Source: a virus. Taken from it: DNA of 55,138 bases. The position numbers and the translations under genes are program-made. The stretch lies in IMG/VR virus record IMGVR_UViG_3300027861_000039, positions 1 to 55,138 of that record. One strand, given 5' to 3'. The notes below the pieces were generated by a model. The model was not told the DNA's origin and did no database searches. It worked only from the letters and a program-made list of their open reading frames with translations. Numbering within the stretch: the stretch's first letter is position 1; each line of letters starts with the position of its first letter. Of the stretch, positions 2,569 to 28,011 are shown one piece after another.

Positions 2569-3030
2569 TTATGGTAAACTTACTGCTCCACCTTCGTCTT
2601 GAGCGCCTGACTCGTCAGATGCGTGTGTTCCAAGATACGAAATTTGAACTCTAGAGTTAGCCTTAGCATTGCCTCCAGTACTATACGATACTGGGATACA
2701 ATTCTGAACAGTCATTATTGGTTCAGAACCTGCTTCAGCTTGTCTGTCAACCATCGCCAGTGTTATTGATTCTAAGTTTAATAGGTCTTGAAGTTTTGGA
2801 AACTTTGGAAGTATGTGACCGCCATTACCTATAATTCTAAAACCTGAACAGTTTACGCTCACGGCTTCATAAGAAGTTTGCGTGATTTCAGCAGCTCCGT
2901 ATCGACCTAAAATGTGAACTGGTTCAGCTCCGATATTAACTGAATATGAACAGCTATCGAAAATACCAACTAGTACGTTGTCCACGTAAACTTTTGCACG
3001 GGCACCATTAAAAACCTTAGCTTTTGCCAT
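2569..3030 (-). CDS. Tail tube protein
   Basis: A 153-residue beta-rich protein, starting MAKAKVFNGARAKVYVDNVL, with the N-terminal pattern of inner tail tube proteins of contractile-tailed phages (short lead-in, then a strand with a 'V..G' turn, then a 'IGAEPVHILGR' segment). It follows the sheath gene with only a homing endonuclease between them. The usual order sheath then tube in myoviruses supports the assignment. It would polymerise as stacked hexamers inside the sheath. The C-terminus is glycine/acid-rich. The family is judged from length, composition and position. Confidence 0.75.
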   Translation of the reverse strand: MAKAKVFNGARAKVYVDNVLVGIFDSCSYSVNIGAEPVHILGRYGAAEITQTSYEAVSVNCSGFRIIGNGGHILPKFPKLQDLLNLESITLAMVDRQAEAGSEPIMTVQNCIPVSYSTGGNAKANSRVQISYLGTHASDESGAQDEGGAVSLP

Positions 3031-3048: not shown

Positions 3049-3705
3049 TTAAATATTGTCATTTATTCTTTCAAACAAATAACCTTTATGTTGTTTTCTA
3101 GTATTTATTAAGCACGATCTAATATGACCGCTATTTATTTTTAAATCTTTAGCGCATTCAGTTGTCATTAACCATTCACCAACATATTCGCCTTTTTTAT
3201 AAACACTTAGTTGATTTTTCTTCCTAAAACTTACACGTATTGCTTTGTAAACCCTAAAAGGTTTTGAGCCGTTACTTATTGCCCATTTTTCGTCTTTAAC
3301 GAGTTTTAAACCATTTACCCTAGCTATCCCTGACTTCTCTTCTTTAGATATTTTAGGAATTTGTTTTCTACCTAAAAGACTATTGCTTATTTTATCCCTA
3401 ACAGACTGTGGCATCTTAAAATTCTTACCGCCAGGCAATATGTTGTAACCGTTTTGATCAGTTAAACTTTTAAACATATAGATGTAGTGTTGCTCTAAAT
3501 AATTTAATTCGCTTAAACTATTAGCCCCATCAATCTCTTCTATTATAAAACTATCTTCACCGTATTTGCGGATAGCTCTATAGAAAGGATAATTAAAACT
3601 TCTACCATCTCTTAAATGCTGTTTCCACCTATCGCTCAAAGGTCTAATGGTTTGACCTATATAGACCTTATCGTTTACTGTATTCGTTACTTTATAAATT
3701 ACCAA
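3049..3705 (-). CDS. GIY-YIG homing endonuclease between sheath and tube genes
   Basis: The 218-residue protein has the GIY-YIG core at its N-terminus: VIYKVTNTVNDKVYIGQT, then the catalytic-type R in DRWKQHLRDG, and the E in LSELNYLEQHYIYMFKSL. The C-terminus ends with a NUMOD/IENR1-like DNA-binding repeat (ECAKDL..NSGHIRSCL..RKQHKGYLF). The start is taken as TTG at 3705, two bases after the sheath stop, giving M-V-I-Y-K like its four paralogues in the window. No clear ribosome site is visible, so it may be translated by coupling to the sheath. It is free-standing, not in an intron, and separates two genes that are normally adjacent. Confidence 0.9.
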   Translation of the reverse strand: MVIYKVTNTVNDKVYIGQTIRPLSDRWKQHLRDGRSFNYPFYRAIRKYGEDSFIIEEIDGANSLSELNYLEQHYIYMFKSLTDQNGYNILPGGKNFKMPQSVRDKISNSLLGRKQIPKISKEEKSGIARVNGLKLVKDEKWAISNGSKPFRVYKAIRVSFRKKNQLSVYKKGEYVGEWLMTTECAKDLKINSGHIRSCLINTRKQHKGYLFERINDNI

Positions 3706-3707
3706 TA

Positions 3708-5858
3708 TTAACTTGCAGAGTTAGTAACTTGACTAACTTCAATTGAAATTGGTATGAAATAGATACCTGTACTAGGTTTAATTTCTAAACTAACAGTCAT
3801 AACTGGACCGCTGATTGTAACTTTCGCATTCTTAAATCCAAGAGGAGCGTCGTCAGATGCTGTAATTAGTTTTTGTTTCTTATAAGAATCCATCTTAGAG
3901 GCTAGGAAAGAAAGCGCAGTAGAAGAATCTACGTCGGCTAATGACTTACCAGTAAACGCCGTATGGAAACTTTGAGATAGATCAAGAGATACAAGATCGA
4001 CAGCATACATTGCTTGAATTGAGTTATATACAAAGTTTGTATCTTGCCCGTAAGATGTTTGGTCAGATACCCATTTGTTACCGCCAACCTCTTGCTCAAG
4101 AAACAATAGACCTGCGTCTAGCGCTCCAGAAATATCTCCTTTTGAGCCTGAATCAAAACCACTAGGGTCTGTGAAGCTAATGATGTTTGCAGATTTATTT
4201 ACAATTGGTTTGTAAAAACCAGCGGTTTGCATTCCAGCAGCGATACAAGCAGTATGCCAAGGAAAGAAAGATTGAGTAGTTCCAGAAGAATCTACCTGAC
4301 TTGATTTTTGCATTGCTACAGATACTCGAGCGCTAGCAGCAGTACTTGCTTCAGCTTTTGCTTCGGTATAGCTATCGTTCCAGTAACTTACGATTGCACT
4401 TCTGTGCTTTCTTACAGCAGCTGTTGACATTTTTAGTACGTGACTTTTAACTAAAGCATTGGTAGCTGAGATTGTATATGTTGAAGAGCTATCAGTTAAA
4501 CCGTCTGTGATATCAGCGGTAGCGTCTCGTGAAAAGAGAGGGACTACAAAGTTAGCATTAACGCCTTCAATTGCAATAGTTGCCGCTACAATATCGGCTG
4601 CTACAGTTGCTCCTCTAGCGCCTGTAAACAAGTAGTCTACAGCTGCCATAGTGTCTGGTAAACCAGCAGTTGCAGTAGCAACGAAGTCTAAAGATACTGA
4701 CTGCCCTACGGCTGTCTTAAAGTTACTAAGACCTTTCTTGATTTTACCAGGAGTAACACTTGCTGCAGTTGAGCAAATTCCAATTGCAGCTACAATATCT
4801 AATTGAGATGTTGGAGATTGTGATGAGCCTGAGTCAGCGCTAGCAGTGTAGCCTGTTCTAGAATTTATAAAATCAGCTAAGTCTTTTATGGTAGCATATT
4901 TTGAAATATCAACGCTTAGATTAGCTCCAGCGCCGGCAACAACAGTAGTTGTAAGGGTTGTTCCAGAGATAGTAAGAGTTGCGGTTGTTCCAACGTAGCC
5001 AACAGACATTGATACTTGAGCTTCAGCTATGTGACTTTCGTCAACGTTAGTATCAGCTCGTTTAATATCGATTTGATGTTGAGGCTCTTGAGAAGATGTA
5101 TATAAACCTTCAGTTAATTTAAGTGCAGCGAGATCGCCAGGAGTACTGTCGATAAGTTCAAAAGATTTACTAAAACCTTTAGTGTGAGCTGTTGCATCCG
5201 TATCTGATTCAATTTTAAGAGAATCAGCGGCAGTACCAGCAACACAACTAAAATTTGCAGGTAGAGCCGCATCTATTAAGGCAATCACTTCTGCAATAGT
5301 ATCGTAATCCCCAGCAGCTCCACCAAATACAGCTATTACTGATTCAGCGCCGCCTTGAGGTCTGATTGTAAATGATACGCCCGATAAAGCTCCAAAGTCA
5401 GTAATGACAGTACCTTCATGAGAGGCTCCAACTTCAGCAGCAACTTCCGTTACTTGGTAAAAATATCGATTACCGTCAATTCCAAAGTTCTTATCAGTAA
5501 GACTACCGTAAGCAGATGCTACCGTAGCGGTTGCTTGAACCCCAGCGTTTGTTTTAACAATGTAAATTCTATTGGCAGAGCCTGTAATGTCGGCGTCAGC
5601 ACTAGGAGATGAGAGCGCTCTAAAAGCGTCTACGATCTGACCAGATAGGTATTTGTTTGTAACCTCTTTAAGTTGATCTGGAGTAAACCAGTTATCTTTA
5701 AGACTTTCAGCAGTATACTTAGCGCCGCCGTCAGCTTCACCTATAATGATGATATTACCGCTAGAAGCAACGCCAACTGGGTTAGACTTGACATTAACCT
5801 CGAAAGGCGCACCTGGAATGTTAGTGTTTATAAAACTTGTGGTGACTCTTTGTGACAT
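3708..5858 (-). CDS. Tail sheath protein
   Basis: At 716 residues, this is in the size range of T4 gp18 (659). The N-terminus (MSQRVTTSFINTNIPGAPFEVN) has the usual sheath opening with a proline-glycine extension. The C-terminal 200 residues contain the conserved sheath core (YDxVYNSIQAMYAVDL-like segment, then a beta domain around SGPVMTVSLEIKPSTGIYFI). The middle is long, alanine/threonine/serine-rich and probably carries surface-exposed domains. It contracts to drive the tube through the host envelope. It lies immediately upstream of the homing endonuclease and the tube gene. Confidence 0.85.
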   Translation of the reverse strand: MSQRVTTSFINTNIPGAPFEVNVKSNPVGVASSGNIIIIGEADGGAKYTAESLKDNWFTPDQLKEVTNKYLSGQIVDAFRALSSPSADADITGSANRIYIVKTNAGVQATATVASAYGSLTDKNFGIDGNRYFYQVTEVAAEVGASHEGTVITDFGALSGVSFTIRPQGGAESVIAVFGGAAGDYDTIAEVIALIDAALPANFSCVAGTAADSLKIESDTDATAHTKGFSKSFELIDSTPGDLAALKLTEGLYTSSQEPQHQIDIKRADTNVDESHIAEAQVSMSVGYVGTTATLTISGTTLTTTVVAGAGANLSVDISKYATIKDLADFINSRTGYTASADSGSSQSPTSQLDIVAAIGICSTAASVTPGKIKKGLSNFKTAVGQSVSLDFVATATAGLPDTMAAVDYLFTGARGATVAADIVAATIAIEGVNANFVVPLFSRDATADITDGLTDSSSTYTISATNALVKSHVLKMSTAAVRKHRSAIVSYWNDSYTEAKAEASTAASARVSVAMQKSSQVDSSGTTQSFFPWHTACIAAGMQTAGFYKPIVNKSANIISFTDPSGFDSGSKGDISGALDAGLLFLEQEVGGNKWVSDQTSYGQDTNFVYNSIQAMYAVDLVSLDLSQSFHTAFTGKSLADVDSSTALSFLASKMDSYKKQKLITASDDAPLGFKNAKVTISGPVMTVSLEIKPSTGIYFIPISIEVSQVTNSAS

Positions 5859-7552: not shown

Positions 7553-8542
7553 TTAAGCATCTTCATCAATCGTAACCCAAAGGTCATTATCTTCCTCTTC
7601 AGAACCATCCACTGTAGGTAAATTACTACAAACTTTAATACCAGCCGTATCTAAGGCGTCGCCTTTTTCGATAAGCTCAAAAGCCTCAATAACCCTATAT
7701 GGAGATTTAATCCAACTTTCTTCAGTCTGTCCTGTTAGTATGATGTATCTTGAGTAGATGTTTTCAGACTGAAACGCATCATTCTTAATCATGTCAGTGC
7801 ATTTGATAGAGCTTAGCTGAAAATTGTTGTATTCAAACAGCCCTTCTCTATATCTAAGCATAGCGTATTTAACTAAATTAAATAAAAATATAGTATTCAT
7901 TGGGTCGCCGTGAGCATGACATCCAATATTGTACTGCTCTTGATTTATAATTCTTTCTCTTCTAGCTCTGTATATTTGGTATTGAGGTATAATTGCTAAC
8001 TCATCAACATCTAAGTCAGAGTCAATATCTATCCTAAAAGTAGTGGCGCTTATCTTTTCTCTAATGATAAATCCATTACCAGTTTTTGGGTCTATAGCAA
8101 CCATATCAGCGCCAACATGCTGAAAGCCACTTAAGTTAGCTGGAACTGTTATAACTCCAGTGGTTTTCTCATAGTTAGCTACTTGAAAGGGTTTTACAAT
8201 AAAGGCAATTGGCTGTCCGATATCTGACGGGTCAAGAGTTTCAATATCAATATCTTGATCACCTAACGTTGCTAGAGAATCATCCTCATCAGACTTACCC
8301 ATAGCTATAGTTACTTGAGGAAATGCTTCAGTATCGGTAACCAGCTTCATACTGTATTGAATTTTGTTATTCTTAATCCACTCTTTAGCTCTATTGATTT
8401 CTTCCTGACCATACTTAGCCTTTAAGATAGGATTATCTACAAAATCAGAAAAGATATCATCAACCAACCAAAGGTTCTTTTTGATATCTTCAATAGCCAG
8501 CTCAATCGCTGTGCGTATAATTACGTCGCCTTGAAATAGAAT
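7553..8542 (-). CDS. Neck/tail structural protein, probable ATT start
   Basis: The frame runs from an ATT at 8542, six bases after a perfect AGGAGG (8549-8554), and encodes 329 residues opening with LFQGDVIIRTAIELAIEDIK. No ATG, GTG or TTG lies between the ribosome site and the TTG at 8467. Starting at that TTG would lose 25 well-formed residues, including the GDVIIRTAIE helix that I associate from memory with the start of a conserved myovirus virion protein of the neck/tail region. The rest contains AxLGDQDIDIETL and a beta-rich middle, and the C-terminus is acidic. No enzyme motif is visible. The family link is from memory and unverified. The start choice is an inference from the ribosome site. 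Confidence 0.7.
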   Translation of the reverse strand: MLFQGDVIIRTAIELAIEDIKKNLWLVDDIFSDFVDNPILKAKYGQEEINRAKEWIKNNKIQYSMKLVTDTEAFPQVTIAMGKSDEDDSLATLGDQDIDIETLDPSDIGQPIAFIVKPFQVANYEKTTGVITVPANLSGFQHVGADMVAIDPKTGNGFIIREKISATTFRIDIDSDLDVDELAIIPQYQIYRARRERIINQEQYNIGCHAHGDPMNTIFLFNLVKYAMLRYREGLFEYNNFQLSSIKCTDMIKNDAFQSENIYSRYIILTGQTEESWIKSPYRVIEAFELIEKGDALDTAGIKVCSNLPTVDGSEEEDNDLWVTIDEDA

Positions 8543-8816: not shown

Positions 8817-9587
8817 ATGTTTATATATAAGATAACTAACAAAAATAACAATAAAGTTTATATTGGTCAGACTATTTTTAATATAGACGAAAGATTCAAA
8901 CAACACATATACGCTGCCTTAAAAAGAAAAACAAAATCGATCATTTATGCCGCCATCCGCAAATACGGACCAGAAAATTTCACTATAGAAGAAATTGACG
9001 GCGCAAACTCTATGAGTGAACTAAACTATTTGGAAACACACTATATTTACAAATTCAATAGCTTATCTCCAAATGGGTATAATTTGAGCAGTGGTGGTGG
9101 AAATAAACGTACACATCCTGAAACTAAAAAGAAATTATCGTTAGCATTAAAAGGACGTAAAATAAGTCAAAAACATAAGGATATCTTAGTAGATATACAT
9201 TCTATAGAGATACACCAATATGATCTTGAGGGAAATTATATCAGATCATGGAAGTCTGCTATGGATGCTTCTAGATCGTTAAATATAGAAAATTCAGAAA
9301 TCAACAAATGTGGTAAAAAAAGAAGAAAAATGTGTGGCGGTTTTATGTGGCGATACACTAAAGAAGACAAGCTAACTCCTTATAAAAGAGGCGGCGGCGG
9401 CAAAAAAGGACATAAAGGATACAACGCAAAAAAATGTGCTTTAGTTGATAGTTCTGGAAAAATTATTAAAGAATATGAATCAGCCAAATTAGCGGCTATT
9501 AGTAATAGTTGTGATGTAAGTACAGTGTGTAAAATTTGTAATAACAAATTAGAAAAAACCAAAGGTTTAATTTTTAGTTATATCTAG
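8817..9587 (+). CDS. GIY-YIG homing endonuclease, inverted in a minus-strand operon
   Basis: A 256-residue protein with FIYKITNKNNNKVYIGQT at the N-terminus, DERFKQHI with the conserved arginine, and MSELNYLETHYIYKFNSL with the conserved glutamate. The C-terminus has two NUMOD-like DNA-binding repeats (SWKSAMDASRSLNIENSEI and EYESAKLAAISNSCDVSTV). It is the only one of the five free-standing GIY-YIG genes on the plus strand. Its 3' end overlaps the convergent gene at 9574 by 14 bases. Ribosome site AGAGGG, 4 bases before the ATG. It has probably inserted between two tail/neck genes. Confidence 0.9.
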   Translation: MFIYKITNKNNNKVYIGQTIFNIDERFKQHIYAALKRKTKSIIYAAIRKYGPENFTIEEIDGANSMSELNYLETHYIYKFNSLSPNGYNLSSGGGNKRTHPETKKKLSLALKGRKISQKHKDILVDIHSIEIHQYDLEGNYIRSWKSAMDASRSLNIENSEINKCGKKRRKMCGGFMWRYTKEDKLTPYKRGGGGKKGHKGYNAKKCALVDSSGKIIKEYESAKLAAISNSCDVSTVCKICNNKLEKTKGLIFSYI

Positions 9588-10344
9588 ATAGTATTTCAGG
9601 TAATATTACTGTGTCGAACTCCTTTTCTGCCCACGCAAAAGCTTTTTCAAATAATTTAACTCCTGTAGCATACTTAGCACTTTCAGGATAAACCCACTTA
9701 CCCTCCTCACGATGTTTTTCTGTAATGATTCTAAAAGTCATCACATCCCTACTAACCTTACCAGTCTTTTCATCTTTTCTTTGGTATATAGCAACACCCT
9801 TAAGAGGTGGGTCTTTATGTTTTTCTTTTAACCTAGCAGAATCTATATTAAACCTATGTAGTAATCCCAACTTAGGGCTTCCGTCTGGGTTGTGCTCTAG
9901 CTTACGATAGTTTACGTTTTCTTTTTTTAAAGCAGCTCTAATTTCATTTGTTAATGCTCGAGCCTTATCTGTTTGCTGTGTAGGATTCTTTGAATGCTCA
10001 AAAGGGATAACAGCATATCTCTTACCGTCCTTCCCAACCTTACTGGATTTGCCGTGAAGCAACTCTTCCATAAAACCAGTCTTACGCCCTTCTTCAGCCC
10101 ATAACATACTAGCGTCTAAAGAGATCACATAAAGATTTTCTTCAAGCTGTTGAAATTGAACGGCGTCTTGATATTGTTGAGATATAGAGTTTAACTCAGT
10201 AGTTGCTAAGTCAAGAGTTTTTTGATGAGTCATTTTAGCAAGCTCACCAACGGCGTCTTGAAGCTCTTTAGCTAGTGACTTTTTAGCTTCACCAAAAGAA
10301 CTTGCTATTTCTTGAACGTCAACGTCAAATCTTAAATCGCTCAT
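9574..10344 (-). CDS. Putative neck / head-tail joining protein, 256 aa
   Basis: Begins MSDLRFDVDVQEIASSFGEA. The first 70 residues are helical, followed by a folded alpha/beta region with WAEEGRKTGFMEELLHGKSSK and a long basic segment. This helical-then-mixed layout is seen in minor tail or tail-completion proteins (an HK97-gp10-like type), and the position between other neck genes agrees. I cannot confirm the family. Its 3' end overlaps the convergent homing endonuclease by 14 bases, so the nuclease insertion has not truncated it visibly (it ends EFDTVILPEILSRYN). Confidence 0.6.
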   Translation of the reverse strand: MSDLRFDVDVQEIASSFGEAKKSLAKELQDAVGELAKMTHQKTLDLATTELNSISQQYQDAVQFQQLEENLYVISLDASMLWAEEGRKTGFMEELLHGKSSKVGKDGKRYAVIPFEHSKNPTQQTDKARALTNEIRAALKKENVNYRKLEHNPDGSPKLGLLHRFNIDSARLKEKHKDPPLKGVAIYQRKDEKTGKVSRDVMTFRIITEKHREEGKWVYPESAKYATGVKLFEKAFAWAEKEFDTVILPEILSRYN

Positions 10345-10632
10345 CTACTCTTTCCAAGAAGACTCGCCAGGATGGTGTATGTCCTTCTTAGACTGTCTAC
10401 CAGCATGTACTGTGTGGGTTTTATGTTGCTTCATATCTCTCTTATTATAGTTGGTAGAGATTGCGTCTCCATCCCAATCGGCAGACATACCAGACCTACC
10501 AGAGCGCCAAGACACTTTACCAGTAGTCCCATCTTTTACTCTGATCTTGCCATTTTTTACAGCACCAACACCGAGCTGTCTTTTAGGTACATGTTTTGTG
10601 CTTTTCTCAGGAAGACCTTTTTTCTTTTTCAA
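10345..10632 (-). CDS. Small basic protein, 95 aa
   Basis: Starts MKKKKGLPEKSTKHVPKRQ and is lysine/glycine/histidine-rich throughout, with a tight WRSGRSGMSADWDGDAI segment in the middle. The pI must be very high. It lies between the acidic 542-residue gene and the 256-residue gene, with its stop immediately before the next ATG. Such basic small proteins of the head operon may be internal DNA-associated proteins. No family is recognised. Confidence 0.55.
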   Translation of the reverse strand: MKKKKGLPEKSTKHVPKRQLGVGAVKNGKIRVKDGTTGKVSWRSGRSGMSADWDGDAISTNYNKRDMKQHKTHTVHAGRQSKKDIHHPGESSWKE

Positions 10633-10652: not shown

Positions 10653-12281
10653 CTACTTTTTTTTGGTTGATACCTTTTTATCAACGCCCATTTTTCTTTG
10701 AACATCTTCCATAGCAACATCAAGCGGCTTTCTACCGTCAGCCCTTTTTTCATGGAGCGGAGCTTTTTTTCTTTTAGCATAAGATGTATTTCTCTCTCGC
10801 CATGTTTTAGGCTTCTTTTTTACTTTCTTTTTATCGCCTTTAGAAAGAGTTTCACACCCCTTAATAAGATCGCCGTAAAGCTTTACAATTTCAGATTTAC
10901 CAAAAGGTTTCTTTTCTTTGTCCTCATCCTCTTCTTCTTTTTCAGCTTCAGGAGGTAGCTCATCTTCCTCTTCAGGAATTTCATCTGGAGTTTCAGGAGG
11001 TAGCCCATCTTCTTCAGGAGCGGCTTCTTCAAACTCTTCCCCATCTTCCATTTGAGCTTCTTCAGCTCCTGGTAGGTCGTCCATAGACTCTTGCCCCATA
11101 ACGTCTTGCTCGGGGTTCATATTAAGTTTCTTAGCCATTTCAATCATAGATCGTAGCATTAGAATAGTAGCTTCATAAAGTTTAGGATTTTCAGTCTTAG
11201 CCTGTTCTAGCATTGGTTTGTTTTCTTTAAAAGTCATTAGAGAGGCTGCTATATCTTGACGTAGCTCTTCAGTATCTCCCTCTTCGCCTTCTGGAGATTC
11301 TTCCTCACCCATGTTAGCGTGAATCATATCTGTAAGAGCAGACTCACCCTCTTCGCCTTCCATAGGTATTTCTTCACCCTCTTCACCAGGCATCATTTCT
11401 TCTTCGCCTTCCATACCTTCTGGAGCCATTTCTCCTTCATCTTCCATAGGCATAGCGTCTATATCGCCGTCGCCGTCAATATCTGTACCAACAACGTCGT
11501 CAAGCTTATCTTCAGGATTAACGTCTAAATCACTCTCGCCCAGCTCTCCTTCTTCAAATAAACTTTCATCTTCTTCGCCATACTCTTGACCTGGAATAGC
11601 TTCGTCTGTTTCTTCACCAACAGTTTCACCTTCCATAGGCATTTCTTCGCCTTCAGGAATTTCTTCTTGATATTCAATATCGTCGTTAGAGTCTCCAATT
11701 TCACTGTCAGGCAATTCTTCAGAAGTCTCTTCACCAAACTCACCAACAGCTCCGTTATCAACAGCGCCTTCAGGCATTTCTTCACCAGCAAACTCTTCTT
11801 CACCAGGCATTTCTTCAGAATACTCTTCTTCAGGAGCTTCTTCACCCATCTCTTCATTTTCGGCGTACTCCTCTTCCATTCCACCGTCTTGGGATGCAAT
11901 GTAGTCGTCAATATGTGGGTCGTACTCTACGATTTGATCTTTGTCATTCATCTTGCCGTAAATTAAAGCTTTACTGGCTTCAGACATACTATCACCCATA
12001 CCGATAGTAAGGGTTGTACCTGCCGATTCAGAGTATTGATTCTTTAAATTTTCAATGGTAGCTTCGTCAAAAGAATCTGCAGGAACTTTATAAATCCCTT
12101 CATCTCCTGAAGATGTTACTATTTCACCACCTACGGACTGTACCCATTCTTCGATAGCTCCGTGGGCGTCTTTTAGACCGCCTGTCAGTTTGGAAAGTTC
12201 TTCATGGTTATCACTAGCAATAGCAGAACCAATACTATCTCCAACATTATCACCATTAATAGCCAAATATTTAAAATTCAT
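10653..12281 (-). CDS. Acidic virion protein with N-terminal cyclase/mCpol-like palm domain
   Basis: A 542-residue protein in two parts. Residues 1-120 look like a nucleotidyl-cyclase palm domain (GGDEF, mCpol, Cas10 and GTP cyclohydrolase III superfamily). A first strand ends in GDN (residues 10-12) within YLAINGDNVGDSIGSA. A second hairpin GGEIVTSSGDEGIYKVP carries GDE (59-61). A C-terminal strand-helix TLTIGMGDSMSEASKALIYGK resembles the GGDEF end. Residues 130-480 are an E/M/P-rich acidic tract. The C-terminus is basic, with FGKSEIVKLYGDLIKG (the KSE motif). The place inside the structural operon suggests it is packaged. Whether the domain is catalytic is unknown: the second metal site is GDE rather than GGDD/GGDEF. 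The domain call is mine, from motifs only. Confidence 0.6.
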   Translation of the reverse strand: MNFKYLAINGDNVGDSIGSAIASDNHEELSKLTGGLKDAHGAIEEWVQSVGGEIVTSSGDEGIYKVPADSFDEATIENLKNQYSESAGTTLTIGMGDSMSEASKALIYGKMNDKDQIVEYDPHIDDYIASQDGGMEEEYAENEEMGEEAPEEEYSEEMPGEEEFAGEEMPEGAVDNGAVGEFGEETSEELPDSEIGDSNDDIEYQEEIPEGEEMPMEGETVGEETDEAIPGQEYGEEDESLFEEGELGESDLDVNPEDKLDDVVGTDIDGDGDIDAMPMEDEGEMAPEGMEGEEEMMPGEEGEEIPMEGEEGESALTDMIHANMGEEESPEGEEGDTEELRQDIAASLMTFKENKPMLEQAKTENPKLYEATILMLRSMIEMAKKLNMNPEQDVMGQESMDDLPGAEEAQMEDGEEFEEAAPEEDGLPPETPDEIPEEEDELPPEAEKEEEDEDKEKKPFGKSEIVKLYGDLIKGCETLSKGDKKKVKKKPKTWRERNTSYAKRKKAPLHEKRADGRKPLDVAMEDVQRKMGVDKKVSTKKK

Positions 12282-12290
12282 TATGTACTC

Positions 12291-13235
12291 CTATTTATTT
12301 GATTTTATTGCGTCTAAAAGCATAACTACATTATCTGTATCAAAAGATTTTGGAAACTTTAAGTTAAACCTACCATCCTCTGCTTTTTTTATTTTAATTT
12401 CTTTATTGTGAAACTGTCCAAAACACACGCAAAGCTTAAAATGGTTCTCACCTTTATAGAGCATGGTTTCACAGTCTGGGCAGTTAATTTCTTCGCCCTT
12501 ATCAAGCTCTACGCTTTCCTGTCTTTTCTTTTCTTTACTATCTAAAAACTCTCTAAGTTTACTTTTTTTACTAGTAGTGTTCATAACATCTTCCTCAGAA
12601 TCATCCATTACCTCTACGCTATCTTCTTCATCGGAATGCAAAGGCTCTTCTTCAAAGTCCTCTTCACACTCTTCATCTTCATCTTCATCTTCATCTTCAT
12701 ATTCAAATCTTTCAGATAGTCTTTCATTAATCAATTGTTGAATAGCATCTCTTTCAGTGATTCTCTGATCAACAACACCTCTAATAAGGGTGTGGAGCTT
12801 TAGCCTTTCATCGACAATAGCCTGTAGCTTATCAGAGTTATCGGGCTGCTCTTGTGACAAATCACTAACGTTGTACAGTTCAAAGGTAGACATTAGTATT
12901 AAACCAATCCCTGGTAGTGATCTAAACTTAAATTCGGTAATTCTCTTACCTTCAGATACAACGTCACCATTGTAAACGTCGTTTGATATTTTATTAACGT
13001 GTAAGGTAGCGTTTGCAAAAGGTAAGGGCAGTTCTAATACGCCGCCGCTATGAAGAGGTTTTAGGTTTGCTATTAAAAACCCCAATACGGCTCTTGGTAC
13101 TATTTGCAAGGCTATTTTAATTTCAGCAGGGTCTAGTGTTGTGGTGCCGCCTAGCTTGATCAATTCATTTTTCTCAAGCACTTCAAAAATATCCTCACCC
13201 AAAATGTTTTTAACTATTTGGATGCTTTTGTTCAT
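12291..13235 (-). CDS. Virion-cluster protein with acidic middle and C-terminal zinc-like knuckle, 314 aa
   Basis: The N-terminal 170 residues form a folded alpha/beta domain (LGGTTTLDPAEIKIALQIVP; FKFRSLPGIGLILMSTFELY). Then comes a D/E tract with an (ED)n run, and a C-terminal part with CPDC and CVC pairs (NCPDCETMLYKG ... KLCVCFGQFHN), suggesting a small metal-binding knuckle. No family is recognised. It lies 9 bases upstream of the cyclase-like gene and directly after the 238-residue gene (1-base overlap), so the three are likely cotranscribed from the promoter near 13968. Confidence 0.55.
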   Translation of the reverse strand: MNKSIQIVKNILGEDIFEVLEKNELIKLGGTTTLDPAEIKIALQIVPRAVLGFLIANLKPLHSGGVLELPLPFANATLHVNKISNDVYNGDVVSEGKRITEFKFRSLPGIGLILMSTFELYNVSDLSQEQPDNSDKLQAIVDERLKLHTLIRGVVDQRITERDAIQQLINERLSERFEYEDEDEDEDEECEEDFEEEPLHSDEEDSVEVMDDSEEDVMNTTSKKSKLREFLDSKEKKRQESVELDKGEEINCPDCETMLYKGENHFKLCVCFGQFHNKEIKIKKAEDGRFNLKFPKSFDTDNVVMLLDAIKSNK

Positions 13236-13966: not shown

Positions 13967-14578
13967 TTAAAGATTGTTTTTATATCTAAAGATGTATTTT
14001 ACACACCTTTTGGTGTTTTTAAGATATTGAGGCATATTACCCTTAGACATATTGATATGATTAGCACAATCCGTCATGTTAATACCTTCCCATATTAATT
14101 TGTTACTATTTCGATCTATAACTTGAAAAAACTTACCACCATGATTTATTGAGGAGTTTTCTCTGTTTTTACTGTTTAACCATCTTTTTTGCATAGACTT
14201 TTTATGTTTATTCAAAAGCGAGATATTAGCAAACCTTTTCTTTTGAGCTTTTGATTGTGATTTTTTCATTTTTTCGATAGAGTCTTTGTGCCATTTTCCT
14301 CTCGAACCACCACCCTCTCTTATGTTATATCCATTGGGAGCTAAGCTATTGAATTTATGTATTAAAAGCCATTCTTTATAGTTTAATTCACTTAAACTAT
14401 TTGCACCGTCAATTTCTTCTATAGTGAAATTTTCTGGTCCGTATTTTTGGATGGCTGATTTTAAAGCTGTACATGAATTAGAACTACAATGTACAGACCA
14501 TCTTTTTTTAATGTCCTTTATGGTTTGACCGATATACGTCTTATCATTAATTTTGTTGGTTATTTTATATATAAACAT
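13967..14578 (-). CDS. GIY-YIG homing endonuclease, 203 aa
   Basis: N-terminal FIYKITNKINDKTYIGQT, the conserved KKRWSVHC arginine and LSELNYKEWLLIHKFNSL glutamate. The middle is basic (NUMOD3-like GKWHKDSIEKMKKSQSKAQK), and the C-terminus has a short DNA-binding repeat (MTDCANHINMSKGNMPQYL). Its 3' end overlaps the CAATCTTTA element of the next gene. It lies between two structural genes, two bases after the stop of 14581-15510. Confidence 0.9.
   Translation of the reverse strand: MFIYKITNKINDKTYIGQTIKDIKKRWSVHCSSNSCTALKSAIQKYGPENFTIEEIDGANSLSELNYKEWLLIHKFNSLAPNGYNIREGGGSRGKWHKDSIEKMKKSQSKAQKKRFANISLLNKHKKSMQKRWLNSKNRENSSINHGGKFFQVIDRNSNKLIWEGINMTDCANHINMSKGNMPQYLKNTKRCVKYIFRYKNNL
13968..13976 (-). 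promoter_or_regulatory. Candidate late promoter element CAATCTTTA
   Basis: Exact 9-mer preceded by ATATAAAAA, 16 bases upstream of the ATG at 13951. It overlaps the final codons of the homing endonuclease gene, so insertion of that gene preserved or recreated the promoter of its neighbour. Confidence 0.6.
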
Positions 14579-14580
14579 AA

Positions 14581-15510
14581 TTATTCAAAATTCTTTACAT
14601 CGACCTTTACTTTAAACTTATTAGGGTCTATTGGTTGGTCCGGCGCTGGAACAGTCCTGTTGGTTTCATTGTCTTTGTCTGAATTTTGACTGTCTCCTCT
14701 CACACGTTGGTGATAAACATACTCTCTTTGAATGACGGCTTGATAAGGTAGTCTACTTTCTTTTCTAATACCGTTCTCAGTCGTTTGGCTGATTCTAAGC
14801 TCATTAACTATTTGAGCAATATACCAGTGAGCTTCATACCTATACCTAACAGAATAAACACGACCTTTACCAGTATCTGTATCTATGCCAGGATTCTTTT
14901 TTCCATCAATCCATCTAATATTTCCAGCGTTTACTTTTCCTCTAGTTATTCTAAAGTGAACGCCTTCTTTATACATAACACCTTGAGAGTCCATAAGACT
15001 TTCAACGCAAGTTACTGGAAACTGTAAATAATCATCCCCATTTGGATTGTAATTTACTCTTTGATAGTTAACTACGTCTTTTTCTTTTTTATCAACATTT
15101 TTTAAAAATATTCTATCGCCAGGACATAGGTGTATTCTTTCTCCGGCTTCTTCGTCAGAGTCTTCATTGTAAAATCTAGGCAATGTAAGTCTACCTTCTG
15201 ATATGTCGATTAGACCGCCATCGCCAGCTTTTTTACTTTTACTGTTACCCAATATTGTAGCGTTAAACTCTCCACACTTTGTATAAATAAAGCCGTTCTC
15301 ACTTAAAGTATCCAAAGCGTCGCTTCTTCTATATTCTCCACGATCTTTCAATCCAATTGGAGATGGCATGGCTCTATAGTGAACAAAACATGGACCGTAG
15401 GCTGTGACGAATTGATCTTGCTTGTCTAAGTTAAACGAAAGCTGATCTAAATCCATCGGTGATTTAGGTAGGGTGGTTGACTGTTTTCCTTTAGCGTCTT
15501 TTTTACCCAT
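14581..15510 (-). CDS. Putative neck/connector structural protein, 309 aa
   Basis: Starts MGKKDAKGKQSTTLPKSPMD. The body is a folded mixed domain with LDQLSFNLDKQDQFVTAYGP, RIHLCPGDRIFLKNVDK and LRISQTTENGIRKESRLP. There is a proline-rich C-terminus. No signal peptide, membrane segment or enzyme motif. Its place between a 67-residue gene (8-base overlap) and a homing endonuclease in the structural run suggests a neck or baseplate component. I do not recognise the family. Confidence 0.55.
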   Translation of the reverse strand: MGKKDAKGKQSTTLPKSPMDLDQLSFNLDKQDQFVTAYGPCFVHYRAMPSPIGLKDRGEYRRSDALDTLSENGFIYTKCGEFNATILGNSKSKKAGDGGLIDISEGRLTLPRFYNEDSDEEAGERIHLCPGDRIFLKNVDKKEKDVVNYQRVNYNPNGDDYLQFPVTCVESLMDSQGVMYKEGVHFRITRGKVNAGNIRWIDGKKNPGIDTDTGKGRVYSVRYRYEAHWYIAQIVNELRISQTTENGIRKESRLPYQAVIQREYVYHQRVRGDSQNSDKDNETNRTVPAPDQPIDPNKFKVKVDVKNFE

Positions 15511-20100: not shown

Positions 20101-22993
20101 TGTAGTCTATATTGTTTACATGAAAATCACTAGCAGATTCATGATTAGCCGCCCTACTTTGAAATATTTGCTCTTGGTTTTCACCTTCCTTACCTTTTTT
20201 TACAAAATTACTCTTAGCATCTTCCGTTAGTGGTAACGTGTCTGAATCAGAAGGTTTAAAACCCATAGATCGTGGAACTTTTTTATAGCTATCTTTATAG
20301 ACTGAATGTATTTTGTCAGAGCCGGTATGTTTAGATTTAGACTCTGCCGAATGGGTTGAGACTTTTTGAGCGCCATGCTTCTTGGCTTCTTTCAATACAG
20401 AATTAATGATGTTTTCACGCCAATTTTTATGGTGTGCAGAAATTTTATCAATATGCTCTGCTTTTTGCTGAGAGCCGTTTTCTTTCAAATATCTAGTAAC
20501 TGTTTTGCCAAAATCTGACTGAACTTCATCAATCATCCAGTGCTCTGGGTCGGTTGTATCAACTCTAGCCCAAGCTATTGTGTTGTCATTGGTAGGGTGA
20601 CCTGATTGTTTTGAAACTTTCTGAACGTGTTTAAAAGTACCATACAGGTCTTTATCTTCCTTTAGAGGAGCTAGGCTATCTGGGGAGTGGTCAAGTCTAA
20701 AAATTACTTGATCTCTCTTATTGATATTTTGCATACTGTCACCCCACTTACTGTAGGATATATCGTACTTGGTTTTAGGTAGCTCTGAGACTTTTTGAGT
20801 AGCCTCATCACTAGTAATCTTACCTTTGCCTTTGAATATCTTTTTCCACTTCTCTTTTTGGTTAGGGTAAAGTTTATTCATAGTACCAACGTCTATTTTA
20901 CCGTTGTTGGCGTCGGCGTGATCTTTAACCATTTCATAAAAATGTTGATCTTCGCCATACTCGTGCTCATAGCCTCTATCTTTTATAGTTTTATTTAAAA
21001 AAGAACTCTCACCGCCGTCAGCTCTTTTTCTTTTGTGTCTATCATTTAACTCATTGAAGTTAGGAATGTGATCGTGTAAATGCTCTGGAATAAACCTTGT
21101 ATCTTGATGGGCGTCTTCATATAAATCATTAAGATGCTCTTGATTGTTTTCTTCAACATAATTTTCAACAGCGCTATTATACTGATCTTGCCAATCTTGG
21201 TCTTCTCGGTTTGCGTAGTGTAAGTCATGACTGTGAACTAATTCATGATAATGTACGCTATCACTATCTCCAAGAGTATCGGCACGCCAAGCTAATGCTG
21301 CGTCATCGTATCTTTGCTGATATTCAGGGTGCTCTTCAACGCTATCATCTTCAAGATGGTTTATCCTAGAAGGACCGCCGTACTGATCTAGAGCTGCTTT
21401 TATATCGTCAATATGAACCGTATTAAGACGACTATCATCTCCTTTTAGTCCTAACTCATCCCAGCTACCAACTCTAGAAGCTTCAAGAGATTGATTAGCA
21501 CGATTTAAAGGAATCATACCGTCAGAATATGTTTTATTGTTGTTGTAGATTTCGTTTAAAGCTTGAAAGGTTGGGTCTCCATAGTTTTGAATTGAGTCTG
21601 GATTGTCTCTAGTCCAATCATTAGCTGTATGCCTGTCAAACATTTTCTCTCTAACAGCTTCATCGTCATCGCCCTCGCCGCCAATTTCGGCTGCAATTCT
21701 ATCAGAGTTATAATAAAGGTGATTATATAATGGATAGTTTTCATCAGCTCTATTTGAGGCATCTTCATGAGCTTCGTCCCTAAGAGAGTCTAAAACATTG
21801 TCAGGTAAGTCGTTTGTTTCGTATATATCATCTTTATTATCTTGATAATGTATATTTAAATCTTCAGCGTCGTAGCCGTGCTCACCCTCATCATCGTACC
21901 ATTTTTGGAACATTTCAGCGCCATGCTTAGGGTCTATATTTTCATTATGATACAGATCGTATTTTTCTGTAAAATCCCCATGTCTTTTAATGTGCTCAAT
22001 TTGTTTTTCATCTAAGTACTCACCATTAATTAGCTGGTCCCTAACCTTGTTATGGTTAGGGTTGTAACTGTGAGTATTCCAATTATCCCAATTTTCAGCG
22101 TCAAACTCTTCTTTAGTGTCAAAATCATTCGGGTGAGAGTGGGAGTGCTCTCCATGCATACCTAAAACTTCATCCATCCAAGTTTTTTTCCAAGAAGGCT
22201 CTGCATCTTTTAATAGTGCATCTATATGGTGGTACGGCAGTCTGTGAGATGCATGTGTTAGTAGGTTTTGGATAATATTAGGTTTGAGGTTTAACGATAC
22301 CTCTGGTCTGTCGCCAAAAACTTCATCAAAATGGCTAATTGATGTTTTCTGTTTATTGATAATTTTAGAAATGTCGCTTCCAGATATGTTTTCAAGATTT
22401 TCAGGATTGCCTAGAGTTAAATCTATCACCTTGTCGTCAAAATGTTTACTATCAATAAGATGCTCTAACATATGTGGATGTTCTTTAGCCATCTTATACA
22501 TATGGGTTTTAGTAAAACCTGGATTTTTTATAATATGCTCATCGCCATCATTGGCTAATTCAGATATTTTTTTAGGAGATAGGTTAAAGTTCCTCTTTAT
22601 ACCTCTCATTCCTTTGCGATATTGCATGGCAAGATCACGCTTAACCGCTATTATAGCATCTAAATCATCTACACCGCTATGTTGAGCTTCTAAATCTTCT
22701 AAGGCTGCTTCGTTGTTTTCAGGAGTGTCGTGCTCTTCTATCGCCGCCGCTCCGCTTTGACTATGTAGATTTGTCCACCAGCTACCACCCTTCCTATTGG
22801 TTGTTAATTCTTTATATTGATCTGTAGACAACTTACCCCACTTATCTATAAATTTATTAAAACCTGTAGGAGTAACAACCTTTTCCCAATCCTGACTAAT
22901 TTGAGCGTCAGTTTCAGTATCTACATGGTCTGGAAACATGTCGTCCTGCTGCGCCTTAATCAAATCGATAATTTTTCTATAGTGTCTTGTCAT
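17138..22993 (-). CDS. Giant polyvalent virion protein with metallopeptidase-like motif
   Basis: 1951 residues, hydrophilic, D/H/K-rich, no signal peptide. Recognisable blocks: a segment WARVDTTDPEHWMIDEVQSD around residue 820; a compact domain around 1380-1500 with MKPGMDNPYKN, NNNHMWFYPTDQGFGSG, HDINGHHKGG and LGQNSWVNFGPHGDHN; and a zinc-metallopeptidase-type HEGAHAML (HExxH) near residue 1790. It also holds KSE-type motifs (MFKSE, LGKSE, LEKGE, IKKGE). Several separate domains in one very long protein fit the 'large polyvalent protein' class, thought to be packaged and delivered with the DNA. It overlaps the 400-residue partner by 4 bases. The ejected-protein role and domain functions are inference. 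The peptidase call rests on one motif. Confidence 0.65.
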   Translation of the reverse strand: MTRHYRKIIDLIKAQQDDMFPDHVDTETDAQISQDWEKVVTPTGFNKFIDKWGKLSTDQYKELTTNRKGGSWWTNLHSQSGAAAIEEHDTPENNEAALEDLEAQHSGVDDLDAIIAVKRDLAMQYRKGMRGIKRNFNLSPKKISELANDGDEHIIKNPGFTKTHMYKMAKEHPHMLEHLIDSKHFDDKVIDLTLGNPENLENISGSDISKIINKQKTSISHFDEVFGDRPEVSLNLKPNIIQNLLTHASHRLPYHHIDALLKDAEPSWKKTWMDEVLGMHGEHSHSHPNDFDTKEEFDAENWDNWNTHSYNPNHNKVRDQLINGEYLDEKQIEHIKRHGDFTEKYDLYHNENIDPKHGAEMFQKWYDDEGEHGYDAEDLNIHYQDNKDDIYETNDLPDNVLDSLRDEAHEDASNRADENYPLYNHLYYNSDRIAAEIGGEGDDDEAVREKMFDRHTANDWTRDNPDSIQNYGDPTFQALNEIYNNNKTYSDGMIPLNRANQSLEASRVGSWDELGLKGDDSRLNTVHIDDIKAALDQYGGPSRINHLEDDSVEEHPEYQQRYDDAALAWRADTLGDSDSVHYHELVHSHDLHYANREDQDWQDQYNSAVENYVEENNQEHLNDLYEDAHQDTRFIPEHLHDHIPNFNELNDRHKRKRADGGESSFLNKTIKDRGYEHEYGEDQHFYEMVKDHADANNGKIDVGTMNKLYPNQKEKWKKIFKGKGKITSDEATQKVSELPKTKYDISYSKWGDSMQNINKRDQVIFRLDHSPDSLAPLKEDKDLYGTFKHVQKVSKQSGHPTNDNTIAWARVDTTDPEHWMIDEVQSDFGKTVTRYLKENGSQQKAEHIDKISAHHKNWRENIINSVLKEAKKHGAQKVSTHSAESKSKHTGSDKIHSVYKDSYKKVPRSMGFKPSDSDTLPLTEDAKSNFVKKGKEGENQEQIFQSRAANHESASDFHVNNIDYIRMVMRDKADHNMSDVHDDDFLDTIQHHKNLAYSHQGRTQDMGQSVSTFDKEDETAEWTSMGPQDRQNVKDSIINKTPLTHTYDGLINTPVPAPIEPEPDTDHGGHTYNLTPKLLKKHIEDYLEMLEKGEGKNALKGAAVALAMFQGAHSINQDSQQTANEQFSSENIPKHARTAASIGEDVSSRDEEREKLKREYSDATYKADKDWFLGKYSEGLSHHVYKQTIKSSPELGAKYGYINKLSNRTLKEVVNKNPNLRDDVHNAHYDKLHKEFEGDHELMLNAWKNGIKSTHGEASREPMSAPELGQQPNEDSTGEPTNAVNFTHRRMFKSEDQHEKGEVKINKEHGKAIAGEYDKVQHDPNNPDVQEAYGALIGETKNQFNDIMNSGIKISRMKPGMDNPYKNSKELHHDIKNNNHMWFYPTDQGFGSGDSAPKDHPMLGKTGIKHDGHDLLANDIFRIVHDINGHHKGGESGFGAKGEHQAYNTHKKMFSPLAQKALATETLGQNSWVNFGPHGDHNRAAPAETRYADQKAGLLPDHIINGNWHTNDSKLGKSEDAAKPIKDIAHEQEMIRESGRPAPDDHITEASDPINKPGKEDKKVTQALTDLKEDKKSTKTMFQRIYSMPSEDKMKGSKRAKMTGQVPSTVNVFGSHYPVVKLLNDNTLLLHTSDYGNEGKTTELVDKIKKELPIHFPDHKVIEVHHPDYRHSSKTMRLRNKKGIHSFLEKAIKDHPDPEYRKHAAEALNHLHTIKKGEFSKPIHDKRMATEGFDGKANEQNRVDRIGKYLESVGLTPDTGGGNRRDLGSHNPTSVTINAKGDPHDQQLLHEGAHAMLTPPGAGLEEYQDAIGEPGYKGKLHQTKHRTELRDAHGGGMPEQSAQQMEAGIARRAGVEPFRSPQRGVSSKSETEKSRKHAKDQLQMYDKGIYSFDPFSGKNELQGNINAYINAKEMGKKDLAEKIRQKMMAHIKAKKAMKESKGYNPEMEEMG

Positions 22994-24192
22994 TGCTTTT
23001 TAAACCTTTCATTTAAATTATGCAAAAACTCATGATTAGGGTGACCGTTATCGTCAGCATATTCTTTAGCTTTATTTTTTTCTTCTTCTAGGGCATGGTG
23101 ATCTTTAGCAGACGTTTCTTTAAAGTCTTCTAAATGTATTGGGTGCTCACTATCAGGCTTCACTGTTTCAAACATACCAACCGCCCTACTCATATCTGAA
23201 GGTAGTCCAGAGTTATATATTCCACTAAAGCCGGAGTTTTTAATCTCAGCGTGAAAAGCCGGCTGTCTCATATATGGCATTATTTGTTCGCCATGCTTTG
23301 CTGTGAGCTTATCCATAGCTGTTTGGTATAGATCGTTAGGGTCTTTAGCAATATCGTATAGTTTTTTATCTCCCAAATTTGTAACATATTTTGATTTAGA
23401 GCCAGAAGTTACTACATCTTCAGGTTGAATCCCTTCAGCGTAGTAAAACGCCATTTTATGTTCAGGAGCGCCCTGCTTGGATTCAGAGCCAATTTTACGC
23501 TTTCCTTGAAAATTAGGGTCTATCTCTTCCAAGCCTTGTTCAGGAGAATAGTGAATTAACTTTGTATCAGGTCCAGCCGTTTCAAAAGGATGTTTTTTAT
23601 CTTCAGATTTTTTTAGGTGAAAATAGTTATTACGAATATAAACTTCAGATTTTTTCATCTTACCAGCAACATCTTTAATGAAGTCTGATTTTTTGTGAGT
23701 ATCTTCAAAATCAAATCCGTGAGTAAAATGACTCCCGTCTGCTAAAGTTGAATAGTAATCTTCTGGCTGATCTTTATGAAAAACAGTACTTTCACCCTTA
23801 TGATGTCTACCGGCTTTATCGCCATTTATGTAGTGCATTTCGTGCTTATAGCCGTCAGATATAATAGACGACTCTTGACCTAATGAGGCTGCAAAATTAT
23901 TTAAATGCTTATATGAGCTTTTTGGAGGATTATGAACTAAGATGCTTTTTTCTTTAGTCCCATACATCCCTTCCATACCCTCAGCCTTATAACCTTTTTG
24001 AGCTAAAAACTCTAAAGTTTCGTCGTGAGACATTTGTACTTTGGAAGGATATTTAGGGTTTTCGGATGAGAAGATAAAATGAGGTTTTTTATCATAAATA
24101 GGATGAGTACTTTCAGTTTTCCACAAACTTGTAATAAAGCTTTCTTTTTTACTAATATTTTGCTTAATATTCTTGTAGATGTTTTTATACAT
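22990..24192 (-). CDS. Virion-associated protein with ADP-ribosyltransferase-like C-terminal half
   Basis: 400 residues. The N-terminal part (1-190) is basic and unknown. The C-terminal half has the spaced features of polyvalent-protein ADP-ribosyltransferase-like domains: LIHYSPEQGLEEIDPNFQG, then AFYYAEGIQPEDVVTSG, and YDIAKDPNDLY, ending with SGFSGIYNSGL...AVGMFETVKP. Motifs MKKSE and LKKSE lie in the linker. It overlaps the giant gene by 4 bases, so the two are made together and probably packaged together to modify host proteins early. Catalytic R-S-E-type residues cannot be assigned with certainty. Start ATG at 24192 has almost no leader behind an extended -10 promoter. Confidence 0.5.
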   Translation of the reverse strand: MYKNIYKNIKQNISKKESFITSLWKTESTHPIYDKKPHFIFSSENPKYPSKVQMSHDETLEFLAQKGYKAEGMEGMYGTKEKSILVHNPPKSSYKHLNNFAASLGQESSIISDGYKHEMHYINGDKAGRHHKGESTVFHKDQPEDYYSTLADGSHFTHGFDFEDTHKKSDFIKDVAGKMKKSEVYIRNNYFHLKKSEDKKHPFETAGPDTKLIHYSPEQGLEEIDPNFQGKRKIGSESKQGAPEHKMAFYYAEGIQPEDVVTSGSKSKYVTNLGDKKLYDIAKDPNDLYQTAMDKLTAKHGEQIMPYMRQPAFHAEIKNSGFSGIYNSGLPSDMSRAVGMFETVKPDSEHPIHLEDFKETSAKDHHALEEEKNKAKEYADDNGHPNHEFLHNLNERFKKQ

Positions 24193-25057: not shown

Positions 25058-25726
25058 TTATTCCTCTATATATGTAAAAACATAACCTTTGTGTGATTTT
25101 TGCTTGTTAGTCAGACATCTCCAGATACCTGCCTGGAAAATACTTAAATCTCTAGCGCATTCGGATTGATTAGTCCAAGCACCAACGTAACAATCTTCTT
25201 TATTTTTTACTTTAAATCGCTTGCCGCCGTGTGCAATAGATAACTTAACTCTCTCTTCTTTGTTTAACTTTGTTCCTATTTTATGACTTATATATCCTAT
25301 TTTTGCTAATCTCATTTTTTGTTTAGTTGATTCGGTATGTTTTTTACCTAAAGCTTTTTTTCTTATTTTATTTTTATGTTCTTGAGACAGTTTTTTACCT
25401 ATTTGTTTTTGTCTCATCTTTTCAATAGAATCTTTATGCCACTTTCCTCTATTGCCACCACCCTCTCTTAAGTTGTATCCATTGGGAGCTAAACTATCGA
25501 ATTTATATACTAAAAGCCATTCTTTATAGTTTAACTCTGATTGACTGTTTGCTCCGTCGATCTCTTCTATGGTGAAATTTTCTGGTCCGTACTTTTGAAT
25601 GGCTCTGTGAAGGATAGAGCAACTTTTATCTGTACAGTGTTTTCTCCATCTGTAGCTTAATTTTCCAATAGTTTGACCTATATAAATCTTACAGTTAACT
25701 TTATTGGTCACCTTATAGATTATAAT
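25058..25726 (-). CDS. GIY-YIG homing endonuclease with probable ATT start
   Basis: The 222-residue product opens IIYKVTNKVNCKIYIGQT, with LSYRWRKHC and SELNYKEWLLVYKFDSL as conserved residues, a NUMOD3-like GKWHKDSIEKMRQKQIGKK repeat, and a C-terminal SECARDLSIFQAGIWRCL repeat. The first usable standard codon (GTG at 25711) would delete the IIYK strand that every paralogue has. An ATT at 25726 lies 6 bases after GGAGG (25733-25737), overlaps the TAA of the previous gene by one base, and gives M-I-I-Y-K, matching M-[FLV]-I-Y-K in the others. I therefore infer AUU initiation. Confidence 0.85.
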   Translation of the reverse strand: MIIYKVTNKVNCKIYIGQTIGKLSYRWRKHCTDKSCSILHRAIQKYGPENFTIEEIDGANSQSELNYKEWLLVYKFDSLAPNGYNLREGGGNRGKWHKDSIEKMRQKQIGKKLSQEHKNKIRKKALGKKHTESTKQKMRLAKIGYISHKIGTKLNKEERVKLSIAHGGKRFKVKNKEDCYVGAWTNQSECARDLSIFQAGIWRCLTNKQKSHKGYVFTYIEE

Positions 25727-27618: not shown

Positions 27619-28011
27619 TTAACTGTCCATCCAGTACTTTAGAACGATATTGTGCTCTACTGGAACGTGAAGGTTATCAGAAACTTCGTTTGGGTCCATA
27701 TATTCCCAGTCATCACACTCTTTGTCAGGGTCTTTAGAGGCGTCTACCAGTTGATCTGGGTCTACTTTTACCTCGAAAACATAAACCATAACATCGCCAT
27801 TTTTACGAACTTTTACAAGTTTCGTATCGATGGCATCTAGCCCAGTTTCTTCCTTACACTCTCTTATACATCCCAAATATGGACATTCACCCTTATCAAG
27901 ATGACCGCCAGGCTGAGTAAACTTACCGTTATCGTTGCGTTTTCCCATTAGAAGATCGTCCTTCCAATCTCTAATTAAACAACATGCAACACGTTTGGTT
28001 TTTACCTTCAC
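27619..28011 (-). CDS. NUDIX hydrolase
   Basis: 130 residues with a complete Nudix box at 36-58: G-x5-E-x7-R-E-x2-E-E-x-G (GGHLDKGE ... IRECKEETGLDA), preceded by KRNDNGKFTQPGG. It would hydrolyse a nucleoside diphosphate linked to X in the cytoplasm. The substrate cannot be told. Its GTG start at 28011 overlaps the stop of the prohead protease gene by 4 bases, so it is coexpressed with head maturation genes. This is odd company for a housecleaning enzyme. Confidence 0.85.
   Translation of the reverse strand: MKVKTKRVACCLIRDWKDDLLMGKRNDNGKFTQPGGHLDKGECPYLGCIRECKEETGLDAIDTKLVKVRKNGDVMVYVFEVKVDPDQLVDASKDPDKECDDWEYMDPNEVSDNLHVPVEHNIVLKYWMDS

Follow-up and report, generated by a model that had tools for sequence, protein, structure and literature searches.

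An mCpol palm domain with an asparagine at a catalytic position in a conserved neck-cluster protein of a phage lineage

Results

The locus and its neck-cluster setting

We analyzed a 55,138-base IMG/VR virus record (IMGVR_UViG_3300027861_000039), which carries no end repeats and is referred to in its entirety as the window. The gene of interest encodes a 542-residue protein on the minus strand (Table 1), and the plus strand at 10653-12281 has stops throughout and no open frame. The features that the original prediction had picked out by eye are present in the translated protein: GDN at residues 10-12, GDE at residues 59-61, TLTIGMGDSMSEASKAL near residues 89-106, a strongly acidic stretch (43% D/E and 1% K/R over residues 140-300, by composition) and a tail containing a single KSE. 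That prediction did not mention the helical hairpin, which is a further folded element besides the palm and is conserved in all relatives.

The same prediction placed the gene in a structural operon, and this proved right. It is encoded among virion structural genes, with sheath, tube-like, phrog_1004, portal, head and head-protease genes surrounding it. Across the lineage the gene order is p15706, p14581, p13235, Zn-ribbon, mCpol, p9574, p7553, p6916, p6360, p5878, sheath and tube, and small genes of this order are missing in some members, such as Myxococcus phage Mx1. The mCpol gene lies between the same two flanking genes in all 43 distinct clusters that contain both flanks. Median pairwise identity is 38% for the mCpol domain versus 42-46% for its neighbors and 52% for the sheath. 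This locked synteny, together with universality and neighbor-like divergence, is more readily explained by vertical inheritance of a core late gene than by an accessory counter-defense gene. No mCpol gene was detectable by hhalign beside the matching neck genes of the compared Herelleviridae, Bordetella and Bacteroides phages, so mCpol is not required for neck assembly generally.

The p9574 neck gene runs opposite to its neighbors in L003 and L004, and it does so too in the distant Bordetella phage PHB04 and Enterobacter phage phiT5282EW (positions L003 9856-10611, L104 5995-6855 and L107 5743-6582).

Table 1 Features of the mCpol gene and its neck cluster in the window
Feature	Position	Strand	Basis and remarks
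mCpol-acidic-hairpin protein gene	10653..12281	-	ORF, ATG start, 542 aa; Pfam mCpol E=3e-13; 44 distinct phage homologues
mCpol palm domain, residues 1-127	11901..12281	-	AF2 pLDDT 94.3, pTM 0.86; Foldseek OptS
N9 codon, aligned with OptS catalytic Asp6 (D-to-N)	12255..12257	-	Alignment; D29/N13/S2 across homologues
D11 codon, aligned with OptS D8	12249..12251	-	Invariant 44/44; not named catalytic in OptS
D60 codon, aligned with OptS catalytic Asp57	12102..12104	-	Asp in 42/44 homologues
Acidic linker, residues 128-330	11292..11900	-	Composition; predicted disorder from about residue 145 (pLDDT about 40-60)
C-terminal helical hairpin, residues 333-397	11091..11285	-	Hairpin HMM; pLDDT 81-90 over most
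KSE, residues 462-464, start of basic tail	10890..10898	-	Motif not conserved among homologues
Small conserved gene, 95 aa, TTG start	10345..10632	-	Directly downstream of mCpol gene; own HMM
Zn-ribbon-like neck-cluster gene	12291..13235	-	Always directly upstream of mCpol (synteny); CPDC...CxC pair
Neck-cluster gene phrog_16819 (p9574), downstream	9574..10344	-	Related to Herelleviridae neck-cluster proteins; hhalign 99.9% with LysYB2
Neck-cluster gene, phrog_1000-like (p7553)	7553..8467	-	Related to Herelleviridae neck-cluster proteins as well; hhalign 98.3% with LysYB2
Tail sheath	3708..5858	-	43% identical to annotated Mx1 sheath
Tube-like virion structural protein (phrog_985)	2569..3030	-	Weak match E=0.004; directly after sheath
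Virion structural protein (phrog_1004)	14581..15510	-	PHROG match

An mCpol domain with a palm fold

mCpol has been described as a rare bacterial defense enzyme. Term searches of the main texts of the papers that characterize this domain turned up no phage-encoded mCpol, where an unlabelled entry in a supplementary table is possible, and a comparative jumbo-phage review does not mention a CRISPR polymerase domain.

Pfam PF18182 (mCpol, minimal CRISPR polymerase) spans residues 5-120 of the window protein over the complete profile (1-114/114, E=3e-13), scoring 50.6 bits (cut-off 26.4), and the match to NCBIfam NF033576 also exceeds its cut-off. A phmmer search against the PDB matched Panoptes OptS (9nwn_B, 1.1e-7; 9mnr_A, 1.5e-7), and with a profile of 26 relatives the OptS match improved to 4.7e-20. 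OptS was the only credible solved-structure match by sequence in the phmmer and family-profile searches of the PDB; WD-repeat rows in the profile search contained no stretch that passed and were discounted as compositional. Pfam mCpol was matched in all 26 relatives scanned, and 17 of them matched the Cas10 palm as well. The resemblance of the motif order and spacing to a palm domain is thus not due to chance, given the full-profile PF18182 match, NF033576 and the phmmer match to OptS, and residues 5-120 are an mCpol domain.

Structure prediction followed by a Foldseek search had been suggested as the check, and we carried it out. The AlphaFold model built from the relatives' alignment (pLDDT 94.3, pTM 0.86) has a palm core, with the order strand-helix-helix-strand-strand-helix-strand-helix-strand. 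The outcome named beforehand as refuting the prediction, a fold lacking this core, did not arise. Against solved structures, Foldseek ranked OptS first (9pd0_D, E=1.7e-9, TM 0.81/0.87), followed by GGDEF (about 2e-5), GTP cyclohydrolase III (4.8e-5) and Cas10 (about 2e-4). The best matches are exactly the palm families originally named from the sequence. The polymerases Dpo4 and Rev1 were also matched, and the best match among viral predicted structures was an uncharacterized protein of an uncultured Caudovirales phage (TM 0.90, 18% identity).

Comparison with known systems shows what is shared and what is not. OptS (PDB 9mnr, 9pd0, 9nwn) resembles the window protein in palm fold across the whole domain, in D57, which corresponds to D60, and in an aligned KxxxK. 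However, OptS stands alone as a 2',3'-c-di-AMP synthase and has an OptE effector encoded alongside it, whereas in the window protein the domain heads a long acidic neck-operon protein, has no effector neighbor and has Asn at the position of D6. Panoptes is defined by a two-gene operon that includes an effector of the OptE/2TM-beta type; no such operon was found, and all 43 clusters had neck-cluster genes as the neighbors. GGDEF diguanylate cyclases and the Cas10 palm share the fold, and relatives of the window protein bear GGDE hairpins, but sequence similarity is weak and the window protein has neither the GGDEF regulatory parts nor the Cas10 partner domains. GTP cyclohydrolase III (PDB 2qv6) likewise has the palm fold but is larger (253 residues), and its aligned portion is only about 18% identical.

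In cellular genomes, an mCpol on a Sulfitobacter plasmid adjoins a CBASS locus, the usual defense setting. Among 392 Planctomycetota genomes mCpol was found in one, on a contig bearing this phage neck cluster. This single genome-contig match was a phage neck cluster within a Planctomycetaceae MAG and was rejected as a cellular homologue.

Linker, hairpin and tail

All 44 phage homologues share one build, in which the N-terminal mCpol domain is followed by a long linker and a C-terminal helical hairpin of about 50 residues. In the full-length model of the window protein, the domain is ordered (about 94), the linker disordered, the hairpin ordered and the tail largely disordered. The D/E fraction of the linker (residues 140-300) ranges from 0.16 to 0.54 across homologues and is strongly acidic in most. 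When run over all ORFs of the loci, the hairpin HMM matched every mCpol-type protein and no other ORF. In a few members CxxC knuckles are repeated within the acidic linker (GC[ND]CPACQERHAM and CPYC; for example L018 6314-7801 and L127 5983-7560).

We considered KSE as a conserved functional motif and rejected it; it occurs 18 times in the window versus 8.7 expected, but roughly half of the homologues lack it. Most loci have a counterpart of the 95-residue downstream ORF (10632-10345) at the corresponding position, and in L004, L024 and L055 the mCpol protein carries it as a fusion. The ORF has no Pfam, PHROG or NCBIfam match. By eye, the C-terminus of the Mx1 protein resembles this ORF.

An asparagine at a catalytic position

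We assigned active-site positions from an alignment with KpOptS. The lysines K110 and K114 of the window protein are the kept counterparts of OptS K105 and K109, and T33 occupies the position of S30, the adenine-contact residue of OptS (PMC12657230). The original prediction placed D11 and D60/E61 in a metal site. For D60 this agrees with the alignment, as it corresponds to OptS D57, but the ligand on beta1, D6, corresponds to N9, and D11 is instead the counterpart of D8. Of the two metal-binding aspartates of OptS (D6 and D57), the window protein therefore keeps only D57.

In KpOptS, D6N or D57N, singly or combined, completely abolished cyclic-dinucleotide production (PMC12657218). Because N9 stands at the D6 position, the window domain is predicted, from the KpOptS mutant, to be without cyclase activity. 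The earlier suggestion that the protein could make a cyclic nucleotide is thus unlikely to hold for this phage, and nucleotide binding or a non-catalytic fold would be the leading readings of its domain. It is conceivable that D11 or E61 makes up for N9 in a way not available to KpOptS.

Phage homologues and the history of the active site

Viral contigs were searched with the mCpol domain, a neck neighbor and the tail sheath, which gave 44 distinct phage domains. The full-length window protein found no relatives when used as the query, because the acidic linker dominates it. Among 50,697 phage records, the sole homologue was WNM70340.1 of Myxococcus phage Mx1 (a hypothetical protein, OR576727.2). 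It resembles the window protein in gene position, domain order and helical hairpin but has lost both catalytic aspartates and both lysines, and its linker is shorter and less acidic.

At the position of OptS D6, the 44 homologues have D (29), N (13) or S (2). The other positions vary little, with D at D8 in 44/44, D at D57 in 42, K at K105 in 42 and K at K109 in 41, while the S30 position is S or T throughout. The complete catalytic set is kept in 29/44. The D group has twelve invariant columns, including D6, D8, G11, S30, D57, K105, G108 and K109, a set that would be expected of a working enzyme. The N group has 17, among them N9, D11, D60, E61 and K110. Enrichment of active-site columns among the invariant ones (hypergeometric, 4e-5 for the N group and 2e-6 for the D group) is descriptive, since the ten columns were picked after the alignment had been seen.

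Changes from D to N were counted on a tree of three neighboring neck proteins. A domain tree rooted with OptS was set aside as unreliable because long branches meet. On the neighbor-protein tree, the N group is monophyletic (SH-aLRT 99), as is the S group (100), with two changes in total. There was a single D-to-N event, and the asparagine has been kept ever since, in 13/13 members of the window clade. With D11, D60, E61 and K110 also invariant in this clade, its pocket appears to be under selection rather than decaying. The S group, Mx1 and L025, has S, A/T, Q/H and G at the four key positions. These two phages have lost the entire site yet retain the domain and the hairpin, which suggests that the function shared by the family needs no catalysis.

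Two contigs showed peculiarities. In L089 (5792-7069) the mCpol gene is in two frames, reflecting a sequencing error or a broken gene. The phage of the L127 contig has, besides its D-type mCpol protein, an Acb2/Tad1 hairpin as a separate gene (G006:C1:82105-82254).

Discussion

Our best explanation, in which our confidence is evenly balanced, is that the window protein is a core late neck or head-completion protein of large contractile-tailed phages that uses a nucleotide-binding pseudo-cyclase. Its N-terminal mCpol palm would be tethered through the long acidic disordered linker to the C-terminal helical hairpin, and the hairpin may dock the protein at the head-tail connection. The palm of the window clade would be a pseudo-cyclase, with the triphosphate-binding lysines and the hairpin Asp/Glu kept and the first metal ligand changed to Asn. 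Most likely it would dimerize as OptS does and bind nucleotide without cyclizing it. A role in the virion or its assembly is suggested, and the position of the gene hints that the protein may be packaged in the virion. Neighbor-like evolution argues for a core late function over an accessory anti-defense gene. Mx1 would be the strongest argument for a function independent of catalysis, and a continued importance of the pocket is argued most strongly by the fixed asparagine with conserved D60, E61 and K110. The 29 of 44 homologues with a full catalytic set appear to speak against this explanation, as a purely structural role would not explain the set for them. A genuine candidate, although less likely than not, is that this 29-homologue clade carries an active cyclic-dinucleotide synthase within a core late or virion protein while the window clade has a nucleotide-binding pseudo-cyclase.

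The other readings differ in what they ask of the pocket. The mCpol fold could be a purely structural oligomerization or scaffold module without nucleotide binding in this phage, and probably is one in Mx1. Core synteny would suit such a module, and so would Mx1 and L025, which still carry the domain with the site replaced, but the invariance of N9, D60, E61 and K110 in the window clade seems to go beyond fold maintenance, and we consider this reading rather unlikely. A dead active site with a conserved pocket could equally belong to a nucleotide sponge or decoy, a cyclase-dead dimer that would sequester cyclic dinucleotides and dampen signaling by CBASS or type III systems. Phages have precedents for nucleotide sponges in Acb2, Acb4 and Tad1 (PMC12657218, PMC12657230). 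However, counters to defense are usually patchy, whereas this gene is locked into the late structural operon in every relative, its mCpol domain evolves like its neighbors and the domain is tethered to a conserved hairpin, all of which makes a sponge improbable.

It is quite improbable that the pocket serves some other end, for instance switching assembly in an NTP-dependent way or binding nucleic acid while the head is completed. Palm folds serve polymerases too, as the matches to Dpo4 and Rev1 illustrate, and the neck-cluster position would agree with it, but in sequence and fold the domain is far nearer to OptS than to polymerases. Least probable of all is an active signaling enzyme in this phage, making a cyclic dinucleotide that, for example, silences a Panoptes effector (anti-anti-anti-defense) or acts on the host. 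The close fold match to OptS, the 29 relatives with a complete catalytic set and the retained K110 and K114 would be in its favor. It is opposed by the natural D6N state, which abolishes KpOptS activity (PMC12657218), by the universal rather than accessory nature of the gene and by the near absence of mCpol from Planctomycetota, where the one contig of 392 genomes was the phage neck cluster. A search for Acb2 gave a match in only one of eight large relatives and none in Mx1, which also led us to reject an anti-Panoptes or Acb pairing.

For the pseudo-cyclase reading and its alternatives alike, the relatives offer a natural experiment, with intact, singly substituted and fully lost active sites. 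Here a domain known from a bacterial defense enzyme is a constant part of the neck cluster across a phage lineage. If the D-type members are active, phages themselves synthesize immune-type signal nucleotides, which serve their hosts as alarm or restraint signals. If they are inactive, phages have reused the fold of an immune enzyme for particle assembly.

Other genes of the window

Five ORFs between the structural genes (3049-3705, 8817-9587, 13967-14578, 25058-25711 and 47975-48709) look by eye like GIY-YIG homing endonucleases and have the peptide ENFTIEEIDGAN or close variants in common. An ORF at 22990-24192 has a sub-threshold match to S-adenosylmethionine lyase (E=2e-5; 24.9 bits, cut-off 28) and adjoins a 1951-residue protein without any PHROG match. 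In a gene downstream of the portal gene (42491-44395), intein-like, Hint-type ends were seen by eye (...HPNCFVGNEGVNIL... and ...VVNGVVSHNC...). The phage also encodes a GroEL chaperonin homologue (34902-36668; phrog_5725, E=1.9e-91). The head maturation protease protein (28008-29432) and the major head protein (30697-32079) both contain ALQVEDL, a possible cleavage site of the prohead protease.
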